A stretch of DNA of 37,576 nucleotides, taken from positions 1 through 37,576 of the IMG/VR virus record IMGVR_UViG_3300032087_004535, one strand, 5' to 3'. A program made the translations under genes and the position numbers. Below, one piece after another: positions 3,331 to 25,547 of this stretch. Numbering within the stretch: the stretch's first letter is position 1; each line of letters begins with the position of its first letter. The DNA comes from a virus. Below the pieces are notes generated by a model. That model worked only from the letters and a program-made list of their open reading frames with translations, was not told where the DNA came from and did no database searches.

Positions 3331-5094
3331 TTAGTTGACTAGATCACGGCAGATAACAAGACCGTACATGTCTGAGCGTACCATCTGCTTAGCATACCGA
3401 GTCATCACAGCCTTGGTAGGTGCGAATGTATCGGGGTTAAAGATGGTAGGCGTGACTTGTAGTGGCACGTAAGGTGCGTACACATAGCCGCTTTCAAGGA
3501 AGCTGTTACCCTTACGACCGACCAAAATCAACCCACGAGGGAAGTAAGGATCGACATAAACGTCCATCTTCTTGCTTAGCGAACCAACGTTTTGAGCGCC
3601 CCAAGATCCACCTTCGTCGTCAACAGCGACCGAAGCACGGAATCCAGCGGTAAACTCAAGAATGCTGGCGACCTCTGGTGAGCAAACAATAAAGTTTGCA
3701 CCGCCACGGAGGGTCTTACGATGAATACGAGCACTGACATCATTGATGGTTTCCATCAAAGTCTCGTACCACTCGCTCACGGTACCCGTAAAGTCGGGAG
3801 GAGCGGTAGCCGAAGTAATGTCTGCACCACTTTCACGGTCGAGGAAACGACCAGGGCGACGACTCCAGTAAAGGGTGCCACCAGTTGCGCCTTGAACAAG
3901 ATCGTTAAGAATTTCTTGATCGATCTCAAGAGCAATTTGCTCTGAAAGGACGCTAGTAAGCTCAACCTCAGCGTCAAGGTTGTGATAAGCATTGAGGTCC
4001 TGAGCAAGCTCCGGGGTCCACTTAGCTTTCAACTTACGGGTCATGGCGGTAACAGCAATGCTGTCAACCTTGATATCGATCTCTGGAATGGTATCATTGA
4101 CACCAAGATCGCCACCAAGTTCCAAGCCCCAACCTTCGGCACCGACGACGGAGCCAACAGATCCACCAGCGGAGAACTTATCTTTTCTTCCGAAGAAGAG
4201 AGTACCTGAAACGCCGGCAATGTTACCAACGTTCAACGCACTATTACCATGGACAACCATAGTAAGGTAGTGACTACCATCGGACGAAGCAGAGTGCTGC
4301 GTCAAACGGCGAACAACTCGGGTTGCAGTCGTTGCAAGGTCACTGTTGTCAAGGTCAACGGTCGTAAGGTTGTCAAAGTTAATATCATCCTTAATAGACG
4401 TGACTTCAACACGAATAACACCAAGCTTGTCGGTGTCAGTTTGACCCAAGAGGTCTGCATCATACTCGATGCGCTTGAACAAATCAGCGTTAGCCGAAGC
4501 GGTCAGAGCACGAATCTCGGTTTCAACGGTAAGCTCAGTGAGAAGCCCAGCAGCAACTGCAAAAGTACCCGTTGGGGTGCTGTAGCCGTTAGCCAAGTCG
4601 TAAGCGCCTGCACGGTACGAGCCATCATTGTCAACCAAACCTGCGTCTGGAATCGAAAGATCGACACCGCCAGTGATCTGCGAACCAACTCGACGACCAC
4701 CGTAGATTGATTTTCCTTTTTGGTTATAAGGAATGTCTGAACCACCAGCACGGTCACTACCGAGGGTGAAGTCCAAGAAGAACACGAGTCCACTTGGTAG
4801 ACTCATTGGTTGCACTGACACGAGGTCCTGTGCAAGTAACCCGCCGAATACACGACGTACAATTGGGAATGCGACTGAAGCAAAGCCTTCAACGTCACCC
4901 GCAGCCATGGAGCTAGCTTCTTTAAGAAGTTGAGCAGCCTGGTTTTCTAGAAGACGACTCATCGCCGATCGCTTAGTATCGTCGCCGAGTCCTTCCAAAA
5001 GACCAGTTCTTTCCCACTTCTCTAATAGAGCTTCGCCTTCACGAGCCAGGGAGCGTTCACGAATGCCTTCAGTCAATTTTTCTAAATAAGACAT
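3331..5094 (-). CDS. Major capsid protein, gp23 type
   Basis: This 587-aa protein shows the gp23 pattern. The N-terminal helix region is KWERTGLLEGL (from residue 26) and SRLLENQAAQLL, then FPIVRRVFGGLLAQDLVSVQPM (76-97, in pieces) and GLVFFLDF. A later conserved segment, YHNLDAEVELTSVLSEQ, spans 370-387, and the C-terminus ends in MVRSDMYGLVIC. gp23 proteins form the HK97-fold hexamers of the head, and the first 60-70 residues are normally removed by the prohead protease. The gene follows the scaffold by 15 nt and is followed by a strong terminator. A shortened relative of this protein is encoded at 19465-20043. Confidence 0.95.
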   Translation of the reverse strand: MSYLEKLTEGIRERSLAREGEALLEKWERTGLLEGLGDDTKRSAMSRLLENQAAQLLKEASSMAAGDVEGFASVAFPIVRRVFGGLLAQDLVSVQPMSLPSGLVFFLDFTLGSDRAGGSDIPYNQKGKSIYGGRRVGSQITGGVDLSIPDAGLVDNDGSYRAGAYDLANGYSTPTGTFAVAAGLLTELTVETEIRALTASANADLFKRIEYDADLLGQTDTDKLGVIRVEVTSIKDDINFDNLTTVDLDNSDLATTATRVVRRLTQHSASSDGSHYLTMVVHGNSALNVGNIAGVSGTLFFGRKDKFSAGGSVGSVVGAEGWGLELGGDLGVNDTIPEIDIKVDSIAVTAMTRKLKAKWTPELAQDLNAYHNLDAEVELTSVLSEQIALEIDQEILNDLVQGATGGTLYWSRRPGRFLDRESGADITSATAPPDFTGTVSEWYETLMETINDVSARIHRKTLRGGANFIVCSPEVASILEFTAGFRASVAVDDEGGSWGAQNVGSLSKKMDVYVDPYFPRGLILVGRKGNSFLESGYVYAPYVPLQVTPTIFNPDTFAPTKAVMTRYAKQMVRSDMYGLVICRDLVN

Positions 5095-15091: not shown

Positions 15092-16234
15092 TTACTTTAG
15101 GAACTTTTTCAAACCCTCAATACGTTTGCCAGGTCTCTTAAGTCCACTTACCAAAGTGTAGGTGACGAGCTTGTCTCTCTTGGCGTCTTCATAAATACCA
15201 CGATGAACAATCGCACCACCAGTCAAAGCTGCCAAGGTATCAAAGCCAAACTCGATGTTGTCCATTAGACCTACTGTTTCTTCAAAGATCACTTCCCCGC
15301 CCACAACAATACAGGCAGCACCTGAAGCGGTGGTTAGGTCAAACCCCTCGGCAAGAAGAGTTTTCTCTAGATTCTTCTTAAGGGCGGTCGATACAGCAGT
15401 TTCATTCTCCGGCTCTTTGACTGTGGTTACACCCATAATCATACAACCTGGCTGCTTCATAATACTGTCGTAGTCTGTGGCATCAAAGGTTGTGTACTCA
15501 GAGTCCTTGTTTGCCAATACGTTGAACACATGAAACAAACCAGCGACCGTGTTATTAATGGTCCTCCAGAACTTTTTAACTGTGAGCTTAGGATAAAGCT
15601 TTTTAATCTTTTCGTTGTCCACCATAATAAGTGGAGCGATCTTTCCTTCCTCTGCGAGCCCGCAAAGTTGAGTGATGCGATTGTGAGCATTCTCTGCAAC
15701 CGTTGGTGATGCGGATTCTCCAGCCGTTGGGAGTGAGGCAACCACACCAACACGCTCATCAACGTTCTCAACGCCGATGTAGGTGAAGTACTTCTTGGCT
15801 ACTTTGATAAGGGTGTTAACTGTGCCGCCACCTGAGCCGCCAGAAACACCTAGGCAAATCAAGATGCGATCAACATTGTTCCCAAAGATCTCACGGAACT
15901 TATTAAATACCTCTTGCTCCTTGCGCTCAATAGCCGCCTCAGCTTTGGCTTGGTCTTTACCTGCACCTTGCTCGCCATGCTCATCGACTAAGAACTTTTG
16001 GTTCTCTGGTAAATCAAGTCCGTTTAGATCTGACTTTGCCGTGTTTACCGCAACAGTCTTTGTGTAGCCCATATCATAAAAGGCTTTAGCCATACGACCA
16101 CCGCCTTGACCTGCGCCAACAATTGCATACACTAAAGCACCACCTGATTTATCCTCAACAGACTCTTCCTCTTCGTTTAGTTCAGGATCATAGTCCTCGA
16201 TATCTAACTCAGGAATATCTAAATCAATAGTCAT
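15092..16234 (-). CDS. FtsZ/tubulin-superfamily GTPase
   Basis: The 380-aa product has an acidic 30-residue leader and then a recognisable FtsZ/tubulin fold. IVGAGQGGGRMA (38-49) is the first nucleotide loop; VNTAKSDL stands in the T3 region; LICLGVSGGSGGGT (125-138) is the tubulin signature loop (family form [SAG]GGTG[ST]G). PLIMVDNEKI and FWRTINNTVAGL correspond to the regions contacting the base and activating hydrolysis. Such proteins polymerise with GTP; phage relatives (PhuZ, TubZ) position DNA or heads. The gene overlaps a basic protein gene (ATGA) and lies between packaging genes and a ParB-like gene. The superfamily is clear; the subfamily is not one I recognise. Confidence 0.85.
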   Translation of the reverse strand: MTIDLDIPELDIEDYDPELNEEEESVEDKSGGALVYAIVGAGQGGGRMAKAFYDMGYTKTVAVNTAKSDLNGLDLPENQKFLVDEHGEQGAGKDQAKAEAAIERKEQEVFNKFREIFGNNVDRILICLGVSGGSGGGTVNTLIKVAKKYFTYIGVENVDERVGVVASLPTAGESASPTVAENAHNRITQLCGLAEEGKIAPLIMVDNEKIKKLYPKLTVKKFWRTINNTVAGLFHVFNVLANKDSEYTTFDATDYDSIMKQPGCMIMGVTTVKEPENETAVSTALKKNLEKTLLAEGFDLTTASGAACIVVGGEVIFEETVGLMDNIEFGFDTLAALTGGAIVHRGIYEDAKRDKLVTYTLVSGLKRPGKRIEGLKKFLK

Positions 16235-18367: not shown

Positions 18368-18574
18368 TCATATCCTTTTCGCCCGCCTATGAATTTGAAC
18401 GTCGCCCGCTCTAATTCTGTATTCCTGCCCATCGCAAATAATGGTTGCTATTTTTTCCCAAGTATGGTATTCTTTAAGCAAACCAATACGCCACTTGGAA
18501 TATACAGTTGGACGATGTAACCCAACGCCATGCTCTAATATTTCCCTGAATCTAACGAGGTCGCCGGCTTTCAT
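18368..18574 (-). CDS. VGDLV-family small protein (copy 1)
   Basis: The 68-aa product opens MKAGDLVRFREI and continues with beta-strand-like segments (WRIGLLKEYHTWEKIATIICDGQEYRIRAGDV), ending in basic residues. The 'GDLV(R/K)' opening with a later G-(I/L)-(L/V) strand and a hydrophobic C-terminal strand suggests a small SH3-like barrel. It is the first of about fourteen related short proteins in the window. It overlaps the DUF523 gene by 23 nt. Function unknown. Confidence 0.6.
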   Translation of the reverse strand: MKAGDLVRFREILEHGVGLHRPTVYSKWRIGLLKEYHTWEKIATIICDGQEYRIRAGDVQIHRRAKRI

Positions 18575-19019
18575 ACTTTTTTATTCTTTCTAGAAAATGT
18601 TGACGGTTCTTGTCAGTGTTCATAGAACTAATTTCCGTACTTGGAAAGTCCCCAACTTGGTGCATCGGAGCTTTAATTGTTCTACCTAAATCTTTTACGC
18701 CCACAGACAAACCACAAGTAGGTGATCTAGCTATACCAATAAAACCAACAACTTCGTCGTGACGCTGTTCTATTTCTTCGCACTTGTCTTTAAGTTGTTT
18801 ATAGACCTCTTGTTTACCAGCGAAGGCTTTTATATCGTCACCAACTGAGCGTAGTCTTATAGTTGAGCGTGGGGTGCCAAACAATTCATGTTCTGGGCAT
18901 ATGGGCACAAGTTCAAATCCATTAGTTTCTGCCCACTCGTGGATTTCTTGATGTCGGCGGTTACTGCCGTTCCATCTTACATCTTGTCCATAAACACATG
19001 CGCTAATTAATATTTTCAT
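18552..19019 (-). CDS. DUF523 / TudS-like Fe-S protein
   Basis: The 155-aa product matches the DUF523 pattern: KILISACVYGQDVRWNG with Cys8, VPICPEHELFGTPR with Cys41, and ARSPTCGLS with Cys102. In the characterised member TudS these cysteines hold a [4Fe-4S] cluster that removes sulfur from 2-thiouracil. The spacing and both flanking signatures are intact, so the protein is probably functional, perhaps acting on thiolated nucleobases or nucleosides. A sigma70-type promoter ends about 12 nt before the ATG, leaving almost no leader and no Shine-Dalgarno sequence. The substrate here is unknown. Confidence 0.8.
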   Translation of the reverse strand: MKILISACVYGQDVRWNGSNRRHQEIHEWAETNGFELVPICPEHELFGTPRSTIRLRSVGDDIKAFAGKQEVYKQLKDKCEEIEQRHDEVVGFIGIARSPTCGLSVGVKDLGRTIKAPMHQVGDFPSTEISSMNTDKNRQHFLERIKKYESRRPR

Positions 19020-19235: not shown

Positions 19236-19468
19236 TCTTTGTTTTCCCGTTTTCTCGCACACTCAACTGAACAGTTCAACATCGCCAACAAGCTATTCCC
19301 GCCTGTATAACCATTTCCCATATCAATTCCGAGAGCCTCGGCGGCTTTGAACAAGATTGATTTTTCCAGTTCTTTACGAGTTGGAGGTCTGAATGATTTT
19401 CCACACACTTTACACTCTTGATATAAGATTTCTACGTTATTCATTTTATTTTCCTCAATGTTGTTCAT
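19232..19468 (-). CDS. Small zinc-binding protein
   Basis: The 78-aa product has CKVCGKSFRPPTRKELEK and CSVECARKRE, two cysteine pairs about 40 residues apart that probably bind one zinc. Its first residues (MNNIEENK) repeat those of the next upstream gene (MNNIEDIK) at DNA level too, which hints at a local duplication. An alternative start lies eight codons downstream. It overlaps both neighbours by ATGA. Function unknown. Confidence 0.6.
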   Translation of the reverse strand: MNNIEENKMNNVEILYQECKVCGKSFRPPTRKELEKSILFKAAEALGIDMGNGYTGGNSLLAMLNCSVECARKRENKE

Positions 19469-20043
19469 TCTTTATATCCTCCTTCGTGTAATCTTGAACC
19501 TCCTGGTAAAACCGCACAACGATAAGAATAAATCCTTTCGCCGTCCTCTTCTCTCATCATAATTGGATATCCAAAAATAAGATGTTTTCCTTTGTGTTTC
19601 TCGTTAAGTTCGTTTCTGAATCTTTCAGAGAGTTCTGCCGTTAGTCCAACTTCCGCATCCAGAGCATAATAACCATTGGAGCAAATTTCCTCAACCACTT
19701 CTTTGTTTGGCGAGGATTCAAAATCATAAACCTGAATTGTTGCAACACTTGATTCTTCTTCGTCTGGCTTGAAGTAGGTAAATGCTGGTACTACACTTGT
19801 TTCGTATGTGAAAGTGAGTGGGCAATCACCTTCTTCAAAAAAACCTGATGATTGGAATATCCTGCGAATTAAAGGAAAACAAATGTATGCTAATTGACTT
19901 TCATTTACATCTTTGTAAGTAGATAGAATATGTCTTGCTTCATTTTCTAACAATTGACTCATAGAATATTGCTCGTCTTCTGGTAGTTCTTCTAGAAGCA
20001 TTGCGTTCTCCCATTTGTTTTTAATATCCTCAATATTGTTCAT
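19465..20043 (-). CDS. Miniature paralogue of the major capsid protein
   Basis: The product is 192 aa. Residues 10-63 align with capsid residues 26-83 in this window: KWENAMLLEEL versus KWERTGLLEGL, MSQLLENEARHIL versus MSRLLENQAAQLL, and CFPLIRRIF versus AFPIVRRVF. A second block, YYALDAEVGLTAELSE (125-140), matches YHNLDAEVELTSVLSE at 370-385. The roughly 285 capsid residues between those blocks shrink to about 65 here, and the C-terminus (IMMREEDGERIYSYRCAVLPGG) is different. The gene lies in an early-type operon, not with head genes. It is clearly derived from a gp23-type protein, but its role is unknown: decoy, assembly regulator or relic. Confidence 0.75.
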   Translation of the reverse strand: MNNIEDIKNKWENAMLLEELPEDEQYSMSQLLENEARHILSTYKDVNESQLAYICFPLIRRIFQSSGFFEEGDCPLTFTYETSVVPAFTYFKPDEEESSVATIQVYDFESSPNKEVVEEICSNGYYALDAEVGLTAELSERFRNELNEKHKGKHLIFGYPIMMREEDGERIYSYRCAVLPGGSRLHEGGYKE

Positions 20044-22377: not shown

Positions 22378-22473
22378 TTAAAATTGAAGAAGTATTATTC
22401 CCGCCGCCAACCCAGCTATGAAAGCCAATACTGAAATAGACAGTAGAGTGACCCATAGCTCCTGCTTCCTCAT
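22378..22473 (-). CDS. 31-aa single-pass membrane micropeptide
   Basis: After MRKQELW the whole peptide is a transmembrane segment, VTLLSISVLAFIAGLAAGII, ending LLQF. A GGGGAG site stands about 8 nt upstream of the ATG. It fits the gap between the LysW-like gene and copy 6. Real coding is likely from its site and composition, but unproven. Confidence 0.5.
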   Translation of the reverse strand: MRKQELWVTLLSISVLAFIAGLAAGIILLQF

Positions 22474-22529: not shown

Positions 22530-22697
22530 TTATTCGCCCCAGTCCTCATCCTCTTGGGGCGCCTCATCCAGCGTGGCTGGATTTAGCCCTGTCACTTCCA
22601 GCATTCCATCACACTCGGGGCAGTCAATAAGCTCGCCCAGCTCCCAGTCCTCGTCAGAAGTAACAGTTCCGCCACAGATTGGACACTCAGCGTTCAT
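22530..22697 (-). CDS. LysW-like amino-group carrier protein
   Basis: The ATG at 22697 overlaps the upstream stop (TAATG) and gives 55 aa. CPICGG (5-10) and CPEC (26-29) form a zinc ribbon; ELGELIDCPEC and LEVTGLNPATL match LysW closely, and the protein ends exactly in EDWGE. In LysW/ArgW the C-terminal Glu is joined to the amino group of aminoadipate or glutamate by a LysX/ArgX ATP-grasp ligase, and the protein carries the intermediate through lysine or arginine synthesis. No ligase or other pathway enzyme is in this window. The phage copy may feed a host ligase, protect or modify an amino acid, or act differently. Confidence 0.85.
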   Translation of the reverse strand: MNAECPICGGTVTSDEDWELGELIDCPECDGMLEVTGLNPATLDEAPQEDEDWGE

Positions 22698-23008
22698 TAC
22701 ATACCTGCACAATCAGGGGCATCGACACAATCGAGGTCGCCGCAATCGACGATGCCATCGTGGTCATCGTCCATATCGTTATCACAGTTACGCTCGATGA
22801 AGATACGCACCTCATCCATTAGAATCATCTCAGCAGCACTATCATCATCGTCGTCGCCGACAGCGCTGTCATCATCATCTCCGGTGGCATCATCGTCATC
22901 GTCACCTGCTGAATCATCATCGTCGGGAGCCACTGGCGAGCACGCCATCGGGCATCCGATGAGGCAGAAAATAATTGGTAGAACGATTAGATTGGTCATT
23001 AGCTTCAT
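22697..23008 (-). CDS. Asp-rich lipoprotein
   Basis: The ATG at 23008, with AAGGA upstream, avoids overlap with the tRNA-Lys and gives 103 aa. The signal (LIVLPIIFCLIGC) ends in a lipobox. It is followed by repeated DDDDSAGDDDD-type blocks and a C-terminal CDNDMDDDHDGIVDCGDLDC segment that resembles calcium-binding 'CDNG.DDD.DG..DC.D.DC' repeats. Both features are typical of lipoproteins of Myxococcota and relatives, so this is probably host-derived and surface-exposed. It is coupled to the LysW-like gene by a TAATG overlap. Confidence 0.7.
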   Translation of the reverse strand: MKLMTNLIVLPIIFCLIGCPMACSPVAPDDDDSAGDDDDDATGDDDDSAVGDDDDDSAAEMILMDEVRIFIERNCDNDMDDDHDGIVDCGDLDCVDAPDCAGM

Positions 23009-23048
23009 TTGTATTTTCCTTTTCTTTATTGTTTTGTTTATGAAGTGG

Positions 23049-23123
23049 TGAGTCACCTTGGAATTGAACCAAGAACCTACGGTTTAAGAGACCGTTGCTC
23101 TAACCTAATTGAGCTAGTGACCC
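23049..23123 (-). tRNA. tRNA-Lys (anticodon CTT)
   Basis: The minus strand folds into a full cloverleaf: acceptor GGGTCAC with GTGACTC (one G-U pair), D arm GCTC/GAGC, anticodon arm ACGGT-CTCTTAA-ACCGT with anticodon CTT, and T arm CTTGG-TTCAATT-CCAAG. No CCA is encoded. A near-perfect sigma70 promoter lies just upstream. Confidence 0.9.
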
Positions 23124-23984: not shown

Positions 23985-24004
23985 GGATTATTTTGAAAAA
24001 GTTT
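23981..24004 (-). repeat. Upstream promoter repeat, copy A
   Basis: These 24 bases match 25574-25597 with one difference. They cover the region upstream of, and part of, the -35 box of the promoter. A/T-rich, possibly an UP element or a recombination seam flanking the methyltransferase/nuclease pair. Confidence 0.7.
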
Positions 24005-24908
24005 AAAAGTCAAGAAGCTTTTTGAACCCACGAGCTAAAAGTCGTGCGTTTGCCAACGCGCCGTTGAAGGCTCCCTCGTGCTTTTCGCTTGGTGTTGTCT
24101 GCATTTCGGGGTGCAGCTGAGTCGTCAGCTGGCGCTGCTCGCGTGTAACAGAGTCTTCACACATCTCTATGCGCTTTGTTGAAATGTCAAAATAATCTTT
24201 ATCCAGCTCGATGCCTATAAAATTTCTGTTTGTCATCTTGGCGGCAACACCCGTCGAGCCGGCGCCCATTGTGAAGTCAAGCACCGTATCGCCGGGGTTA
24301 CTATATGTCATAATAAGCCAGCTTAGCACATTAGTTGGCTTTTGCGTGGGATGCACCGTCTGTTGGGCTGAAAAGTTTCGTGAAGCGTGTAGGATACTCT
24401 TTGGGTAGCGTGTCCCTTCATTTTTTAGCTTCATCACTTTGTTGTTGCCGAACCCATAACCATGAGTATTTATGCCTGTGCCATATCCATCCTCGCTCTT
24501 GCAATTTCGCTCATAAGACTGCCCAGCCTCCATGATAGGATTATAGGTTGCAGCACTTCCGTTAGCAAAAACAATAATGTTTTCATGGACTTTCAGGGGA
24601 CGATACTTGGCGAGCCCGGGGCTTCCACACTTGTTTTTGTTCCAAATGAGTTCATATTTAAACCACTTTTCATTAGAAACTATAAGCTTGGAAGTAAATG
24701 GCTGCGAACCAAAAAAGATAGCATGAGTTTTTGGCTTCATAATCCGCCTTAGATGGCGCCAAACTTCATCAAAGTTTAACACATCATCCCACTTAATGGA
24801 TGTTGTTCCATAAGGGGGGTCGGTGAGAACCAAGTCAATAGAATTGTCTGGCAATTCTGCCAGCACCTTCATACAATCATCGTGATAGAGCTTGAAATTA
24901 CTCGTCAT
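24003..24908 (-). CDS. DNA methyltransferase (N6-adenine or N4-cytosine, class beta)
   Basis: The product is 301 aa. Motif IV LVLTDPPYGT (27-36) comes before motif I VLDFTMGAGSTGVAA (near 205-220), the class beta order, with NFIGIELDKDYFDIS after it. DPPY indicates transfer of methyl to an exocyclic amine of adenine or cytosine. The start overlaps the stop of the nuclease-like gene (ATGA), so the two are made together. The pair may protect phage DNA while cutting competing DNA. The C-terminal 50 residues are an extra tail. Target sequence unknown. Confidence 0.9.
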   Translation of the reverse strand: MTSNFKLYHDDCMKVLAELPDNSIDLVLTDPPYGTTSIKWDDVLNFDEVWRHLRRIMKPKTHAIFFGSQPFTSKLIVSNEKWFKYELIWNKNKCGSPGLAKYRPLKVHENIIVFANGSAATYNPIMEAGQSYERNCKSEDGYGTGINTHGYGFGNNKVMKLKNEGTRYPKSILHASRNFSAQQTVHPTQKPTNVLSWLIMTYSNPGDTVLDFTMGAGSTGVAAKMTNRNFIGIELDKDYFDISTKRIEMCEDSVTREQRQLTTQLHPEMQTTPSEKHEGAFNGALANARLLARGFKKLLDF

Positions 24909-25525
24909 ACTGCCAATCCTTTGAGCGCCAAGTAGGGGGCTGCCCTCTTACGCAAAACGTCTTCGAGCAATCCCAAAATAAAAGACGCCTTCTCCTCTTC
25001 GCTTCTCAGCGTAATCTCCAACTCTCTTTTGAGCTGAATTGGGTTAGACGGATTTGTCACAATTGAGCTGGGGGCAATGTCAGTAAGAGAGACGAAAACC
25101 GGTGCGCGATTGCTGCGCTTGTACATTACCAGATAAAAATATTCATTCAAAATACGCTTAGGTCTGGCGGCGCTCAGCTGCTTCACCAGGCTCGTCCAGC
25201 TAGTGCCTCCCGACTTGCCCAGCAAAACATATTGAAAAACCTTGGGTCCTCCGCCATTATATGTTGAGGTGTTCTCGCTCACCATCTTAATGTTAATCGG
25301 ATATACCTTGGACCCAATCTGAATATCGATGTCCCCGAAGGACCTGTTGTGACTCTTTGGGAGAATCGTAAAAGATTGATTGGAACCAAAGCGCTCCCTT
25401 AGCGCGCTAGTAACGGCGTCTTCTGAGTGCAGAGATTCTAGCCTTCCATCGGAATTCTCGGTGAGAGAAATCTCTCGACCACTCAAAAAGTCAGTAAAAA
25501 GGGCTCCCACTTGTCGAATATCCAC
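24905..25525 (-). CDS. Probable type II restriction endonuclease, PD-(D/E)xK-like
   Basis: I place the start at the GTG at 25525 (GAGG site upstream), because an in-frame GTG at 25546 falls beside the -10 box of the promoter; this gives 206 aa. The core reads RSFGDIDIQIGSKVYPINIKMVSEN: Asp residues, a strand, then N-I-K, a likely PD-(D/E)xK centre with Asn replacing the usual acidic residue. Later parts (TSWTSLVKQL, YFYLVMYKR) are ordinary mixed alpha/beta. Overlap with the methyltransferase is the best evidence for a restriction role. Alternatively it could be a repair or nicking enzyme. Confidence 0.6.
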   Translation of the reverse strand: MDIRQVGALFTDFLSGREISLTENSDGRLESLHSEDAVTSALRERFGSNQSFTILPKSHNRSFGDIDIQIGSKVYPINIKMVSENTSTYNGGGPKVFQYVLLGKSGGTSWTSLVKQLSAARPKRILNEYFYLVMYKRSNRAPVFVSLTDIAPSSIVTNPSNPIQLKRELEITLRSEEEKASFILGLLEDVLRKRAAPYLALKGLAV

Positions 25526-25547
25526 CGTTACCTCACTTTCTATCACT

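Follow-up and report, generated by a model that had tools for sequence, protein, structure and literature searches.

A putative LysW-type amino-group carrier protein encoded by T4-like phages apart from its pathway enzymes

Amino-group carrier proteins have so far been described in microbial lysine and arginine synthesis and in a few natural-product clusters. Stand-alone carriers of other kinds, such as acyl carrier protein and thioredoxin, are encoded by phages. In the lysine pathway of Thermus thermophilus, LysW is the carrier of alpha-aminoadipate (PDB 3wwl, 3wwn, 5ein, 5eio); the LysW/ArgW proteins of Thermococcus and haloarchaea (PDB 5k2m) are either shared between pathways or arginine-specific, with ArgX/LysX loading glutamate or aminoadipate onto them (PMC10433800). 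These ligases recognize the EDWGE tail of the carrier by means of a GSWGR motif, and mutation of the terminal Glu of haloarchaeal ArgW abolishes arginine synthesis (PMC10433800). Both the globular domain, with its negative charges, and the tail are recognized by the enzymes acting on these carriers (PMC9303977). Homologues are also found outside primary lysine and arginine synthesis, as Vzb22-type carriers for DADH and vazabitide, and as neighbours of family 3 encapsulins (PMC8346489, PMC9303977).

The window analyzed here is an entire IMG/VR record of 37,576 bases. It contains, on the minus strand at 22530-22697, a lysW-like gene of 55 codons with an ATG start, assigned by family profiles and fold prediction. 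Its product, MNAECPICGGTVTSDEDWELGELIDCPECDGMLEVTGLNPATLDEAPQEDEDWGE, had been read in the initial annotation, from the letters alone, as a phage-encoded LysW-like carrier with two CxxC pairs, ELGE and LEV.GL.P-type segments and the exact EDWGE end. Each of these elements is present: the second segment reads LEVTGLNP, and the terminal EDWGE is followed by the stop codon. The lysW equivalog model TIGR01206 matches with 61.1 bits (E 7e-17; curated cut-off 53.2 bits) and PF21344, Zn_ribbon_LysW, with 56.2 bits, more than twice its cut-off of 27 bits; the LysW structures 5k2m and 3wwl are matched at E about 1e-11, identity to structurally solved LysW sequences being about 46-50%. These matches are far stronger than chance would give, and every sequence test run points to a LysW amino-group carrier protein. 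Placement among generic zinc ribbons, tried as an alternative, was not borne out: the LysW models far outscore the remaining zinc ribbons of Pfam and PHROG. No PHROG family was found for the protein.

A predicted structure (AlphaFold2, pLDDT 87, with a flexible tail) suggests a zinc-ribbon fold of the LysW type. PDB matches of this fold at E<=0.001 consist of LysW chains only, coming from complexes with LysZ, LysY and ArgX/LysX and from the free carrier. The phage protein resembles T. thermophilus LysW in sequence (about 50% identity over 54 residues), in its four zinc cysteines, acidic domain and EDWGE tail, and in the same predicted fold; it differs by a Glu32 to Met change, by one additional residue before the second CxxC and by having no lysX, lysY, lysZ or lysJ nearby. 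Tail and zinc ribbon are also shared with the Thermococcus and haloarchaeal carriers, but the archaeal carrier model NF041070 is not reached (47 bits, cut-off 75). Natural-product carriers are clustered with their own enzymes; none accompany the phage LysW. A looser analogy may be drawn with phage acyl carrier protein and thioredoxin, as small carriers which the phage would supply for host enzymes, although family and chemistry are different, LysW carrying an amino group as an isopeptide. Judged by its sequence, the protein is an ordinary bacterial-type LysW, unusual for its phage home and its solitude.

Further copies were sought in viral sequences by alignment- and motif-based scans, because a single-sequence LysW scan of the viral contigs gave no match. 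The alignment-based scan of 2.9 million IMG/VR viral contigs, with the window's own record excluded, found three: L002, L003 and L004. The same three, and nothing else, were returned by scans of IMG/VR for EDWGE directly ahead of any one of the three stop codons, filtered for paired CxxC, and by a second profile scan; such scans miss copies with another tail. GenBank phages (50,697 records) have no LysW match of note. The gene is therefore very rare among phages, unlike many metabolic-boost genes. In open-licence papers, a literature scope which does not prove priority, no report of an amino-group carrier in a virus or phage was found, co-mentions being unrelated.

Genes for the gp20 portal, a gp17-type terminase and the gp23 capsid protein lie on the same strand as lysW; the window is a fragment of a T4-like myophage. 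Cultured phages are only distantly related in their terminase, the best being Flavobacterium phage immuto (42% identity, 160 kb). L002 and L003, which come from other metagenome projects, are sisters of the window phage: in L003, a contig of 161.7 kb, the terminase is 65% and the capsid protein 59% identical to those of the window. The gene order around lysW is common to the window and L003, and synteny extends to L002. The genomes are rearranged, since the remaining part of the window has its counterpart far away in L003. L004 has a different portal family and a divergent LysW, which also ends in EDWGE; it is an unrelated phage. In a LysW tree the three sister-phage copies group together (100/86), with L004 outside that group; its 56 columns are too few to resolve the cellular source of the phage copies. 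Finding the same gene, with the same flanking phage gene order, on three contigs from different metagenome projects already contradicts the idea that host DNA was misplaced in a phage contig, as do the gp20, gp17-type and gp23 genes on the same strand of the window: the probability left to such an artefact is negligible.

In the window, lysW is one of a series of very small genes. Directly upstream is an Asp-rich (DDDDSA) putative lipoprotein gene (22697-23056, minus strand), the true start of which may be an internal ATG (MKLMTNLIVLPIIFCLIGC...), preceded by a tRNA-Lys gene with a CTT anticodon (23046-23123, minus strand); downstream is a 31-aa putative transmembrane peptide (MRKQELWVTLLSISVLAFIAGLAAGIILLQF; 22378-22473, minus strand), which sequence comparison shows to be conserved at the same site in L002. 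Since the lipoprotein and lysW genes are on the same strand, with overlapping stop and start (TAATG), their co-translation is likely; tRNA-Lys, lipoprotein and lysW would also be co-transcribed. In both sister phages the lipoprotein gene is found upstream of lysW, with one 66-aa ORF between the two, and tRNA-Lys(CTT), diverged in sequence, is upstream as well. The adjacency, which the initial annotation considered suggestive of a link to lysine, is thus conserved. However, tRNA-Met and tRNA-Gln lie beside tRNA-Lys, and further tRNAs are found elsewhere in the sister phage: because the region is a general tRNA and small-gene area, tRNA-Lys is weak evidence for a role in lysine metabolism.

Other genes of the window, all on the minus strand, were noted. 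A 192-aa ORF (19465-20043) encodes a paralogue, in miniature, of the major capsid protein (3331-5094); identity is 40% in the N-terminal 63 aa and 48% in a stretch of 27 aa further on, as if a capsid gene had been copied and shortened. At least 11 small proteins encoded between 18368 and 28770 have in common an N-terminal 'GDLV' motif, with SH3-like beta patterns after it; the 161.7-kb sister has about ten more, and the whole looks like an expanded paralogous family. The ORF at 18552-19019 is probably the one that matches DUF523/2-thiouracil desulfurase (PF04463), unusual for a phage, and could affect thiolation of tRNA or nucleotides. A tubulin/FtsZ relative of the TubZ type (15092-16234; PF00091, PF22453), among small genes near the terminase, has no tblastn match in the sister phage. 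At 24003-25546, an N6/N4 DNA methylase gene (PF01555) is followed by an unassigned 213-aa gene; this locus, absent from the sister, is a possible restriction-modification pair.

The four phage proteins were aligned with 82 cellular LysW sequences. The zinc-knuckle cysteines C5, C8, C26 and C29 are present in all four phage copies, and in 98-99% of the cellular ones. The C-terminal Glu, whose conservation among homologues had been put forward as a test of the assignment, is also found in four out of four, as the free end of an EDWGE placed directly before the stop; by position, Glu55 is the expected attachment site. Besides cysteines and tail, the window protein keeps E22, L33, E34 and A46-P47, all conserved across the cellular sequences; E22, L33 and A46-P47 are retained in the other phage copies too. 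In the sister phages lysW is under strong purifying selection: between L002 and L003, dN is 0.096 and dS 1.25 (dN/dS about 0.08). Comparison of either with the window gives a saturated dS and a dN of about 0.32-0.35. Host-like, carried by a phage contig, syntenic in the sisters and under selection, the gene has the attributes of an auxiliary metabolic gene.

Phages often encode small zinc ribbons, and no partner gene is present here. The protein might accordingly be a zinc ribbon no longer working as a carrier, whose tail would serve for binding only, the protein being for example an adaptor that contacts some protein of the host or the phage. We consider this highly improbable: EDWGE with its free Glu is exactly kept in two unrelated phage lineages, and persists in sisters whose synonymous sites are nearly saturated. 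Loading is the known role of this tail and, because LysX/ArgX-type ligases are known to recognize EDWGE, the constraint on it points to constraint by a ligase of that type (PMC10433800).

Some conserved positions are altered. The window protein departs from the alignment at Gly30 and at the near-invariant Glu32 (96% of cellular copies), which is Met in the three sister-phage copies, window included, and Ser in L004. The phage LysW thus combines a fully conserved tail with one altered docking residue, and the change at Glu32 may disturb binding to at least one pathway enzyme. With 17 D/E and no K/R, the globular domain is acidic; at a charge of -17/-18, as opposed to a cellular mean of -13.6, the window and sister proteins are among the most acidic. 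Both features would suit a decoy or inhibitor, which binds to, or is loaded by, host LysX/ArgX and is not processed, so tying up ligase or amino acid and shifting host lysine/arginine metabolism in favour of the phage: Met or Ser at position 32 next to an intact EDWGE fits retained loading with altered downstream binding. Such a role seems quite unlikely, however, as most other conserved positions are kept, and there is no evidence that blocking lysine synthesis helps a phage. Moreover, the alignment of Sulfolobus LysW has Gln at position 32, so a carrier can work with another residue at that site.

Two variants were observed among the cellular sequences. Five of the 82 (L008, L026, L048, L059, L061) end in EDWGQ instead of EDWGE, which might require deamidation before loading, as for Pup, or reflect another linkage. 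A Bdellovibrionales LysW (L053, 4730-4894) lacks all four zinc cysteines but keeps EDWGE; it adjoins LysX/LysY/LysZ/LysJ-type genes, and is apparently a zinc-free carrier.

Partner enzymes were searched for in all four phage records. A RimK/LysX-family domain, found in 13 of 14 control genomes, is absent from all of them. Profiles for LysX, LysY, LysZ, LysJ, homocitrate synthase, aconitase and HICDH, built from genes beside cellular lysW, gave no credible match in the same records (best E 0.13). The profiles do work on cellular DNA: LysX was recovered at 49 cellular lysW loci, many of which are cut by contig ends, and the LysY, LysZ and LysJ profiles also recover cellular genes beside lysW. 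In the sister phage, a Pfam scan covering the majority of its larger proteins, other than large structural ones and ORFs crossing segment borders, lists sugar, nucleotide and replication genes and, among the families listed, no pathway enzyme. The statement that no partner enzyme lies in the window therefore holds, and extends, by RimK-family and profile searches, to the 161.7-kb sister, which is not proven complete and where a strongly diverged ligase could have escaped the profiles. To the extent that sequences tell, the phage records do not amount to a complete LysW pathway for lysine or arginine. The only GSWGR-like string in G001, the record of a sister phage, was discarded, being out of frame and among stops.

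These results also bear on the hypothesis of a repurposed carrier, handling another amino compound with phage or host enzymes unlike LysX; the outcome would be a special amino acid, or else a modification that serves the infection. Reuse for non-lysine products is documented, for instance for actinobacterial DADH (PMC9303977; PMC8346489), and the large set of sugar and nucleotide genes in the sister phage makes unusual chemistry plausible. Yet neither a RimK/LysX-type ATP-grasp ligase nor any other pathway enzyme occurs in the four records, and no conserved enzyme gene adjoins lysW in the phages: this hypothesis is unlikely.

G001 features other metabolic genes. An adenylosuccinate synthetase and an IMP dehydrogenase family protein are encoded close together (L097, 8057-9049 and 10103-11134); the nearest PDB entry to the former is an ordinary PurA, PurZ being far weaker. 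GroEL and Thy1 are also encoded, as are several tRNAs and a tmRNA (L091, 4054-4390) with the tag ANNSNYSELALAA, which could help to identify the host. Comparisons with up to 45 LysW-bearing genomes pointed to no clear host: the lipoprotein has no match, tRNA-Lys has partial matches of 77-86%, GroEL is 40-53% identical everywhere, and tmRNA gives short end matches only.

The reading we prefer is that of an orphan carrier in a T4-like lineage, charged and cycled by host enzymes as a metabolic top-up; we hold it about as readily as we doubt it. According to this model, a T4-like myophage lineage would have captured a LysW gene and kept it without enzymes of its own. A host ATP-grasp ligase of the LysX/ArgX type would join alpha-aminoadipate or glutamate, through its alpha-amino group, to the gamma-carboxylate of Glu55, and host enzymes of the LysZ, LysY, LysJ and LysK types would process and release the product. 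The phage would thus supply a stoichiometric carrier, and not an enzyme, enlarging the carrier pool and raising the flux to lysine, or to ornithine and arginine, during phage protein synthesis. The partner ligase most likely comes from the host, since LysX, LysY, LysZ and LysJ are missing from the phages while the profiles recover cellular LysX. A tail under selection, together with the missing pathway enzymes, supports a host-charged carrier. That the host possesses the pathway and that its ligase performs the loading is inferred, as are the cargo and the benefit to the phage. Of the roles proposed in the initial annotation, we favour the use of a host LysX; sequestration of an amino acid is possible but less likely, and nothing positive speaks for decoration of DNA or protein. 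The Glu32 change and the host comparisons, which gave no clear candidate, weigh against certainty, and rarity in phages, unlike many metabolic-boost genes, counts against a top-up.

A tentative, somewhat unlikely variant takes the Glu32 to Met change as a retuned docking face next to an intact tail: host LysX would charge the carrier, and the cargo would be held back, or diverted to a phage-specific product. If true, a virus would for the first time be seen to encode an amino-group carrier system with a use of its own. Should the preferred top-up model be correct, the hosts of these uncultured T4-like phages would be expected to use the LysW route to lysine or arginine; that a phage brings the carrier alone would imply that in infected cells the carrier pool is limiting, or else worth hijacking.
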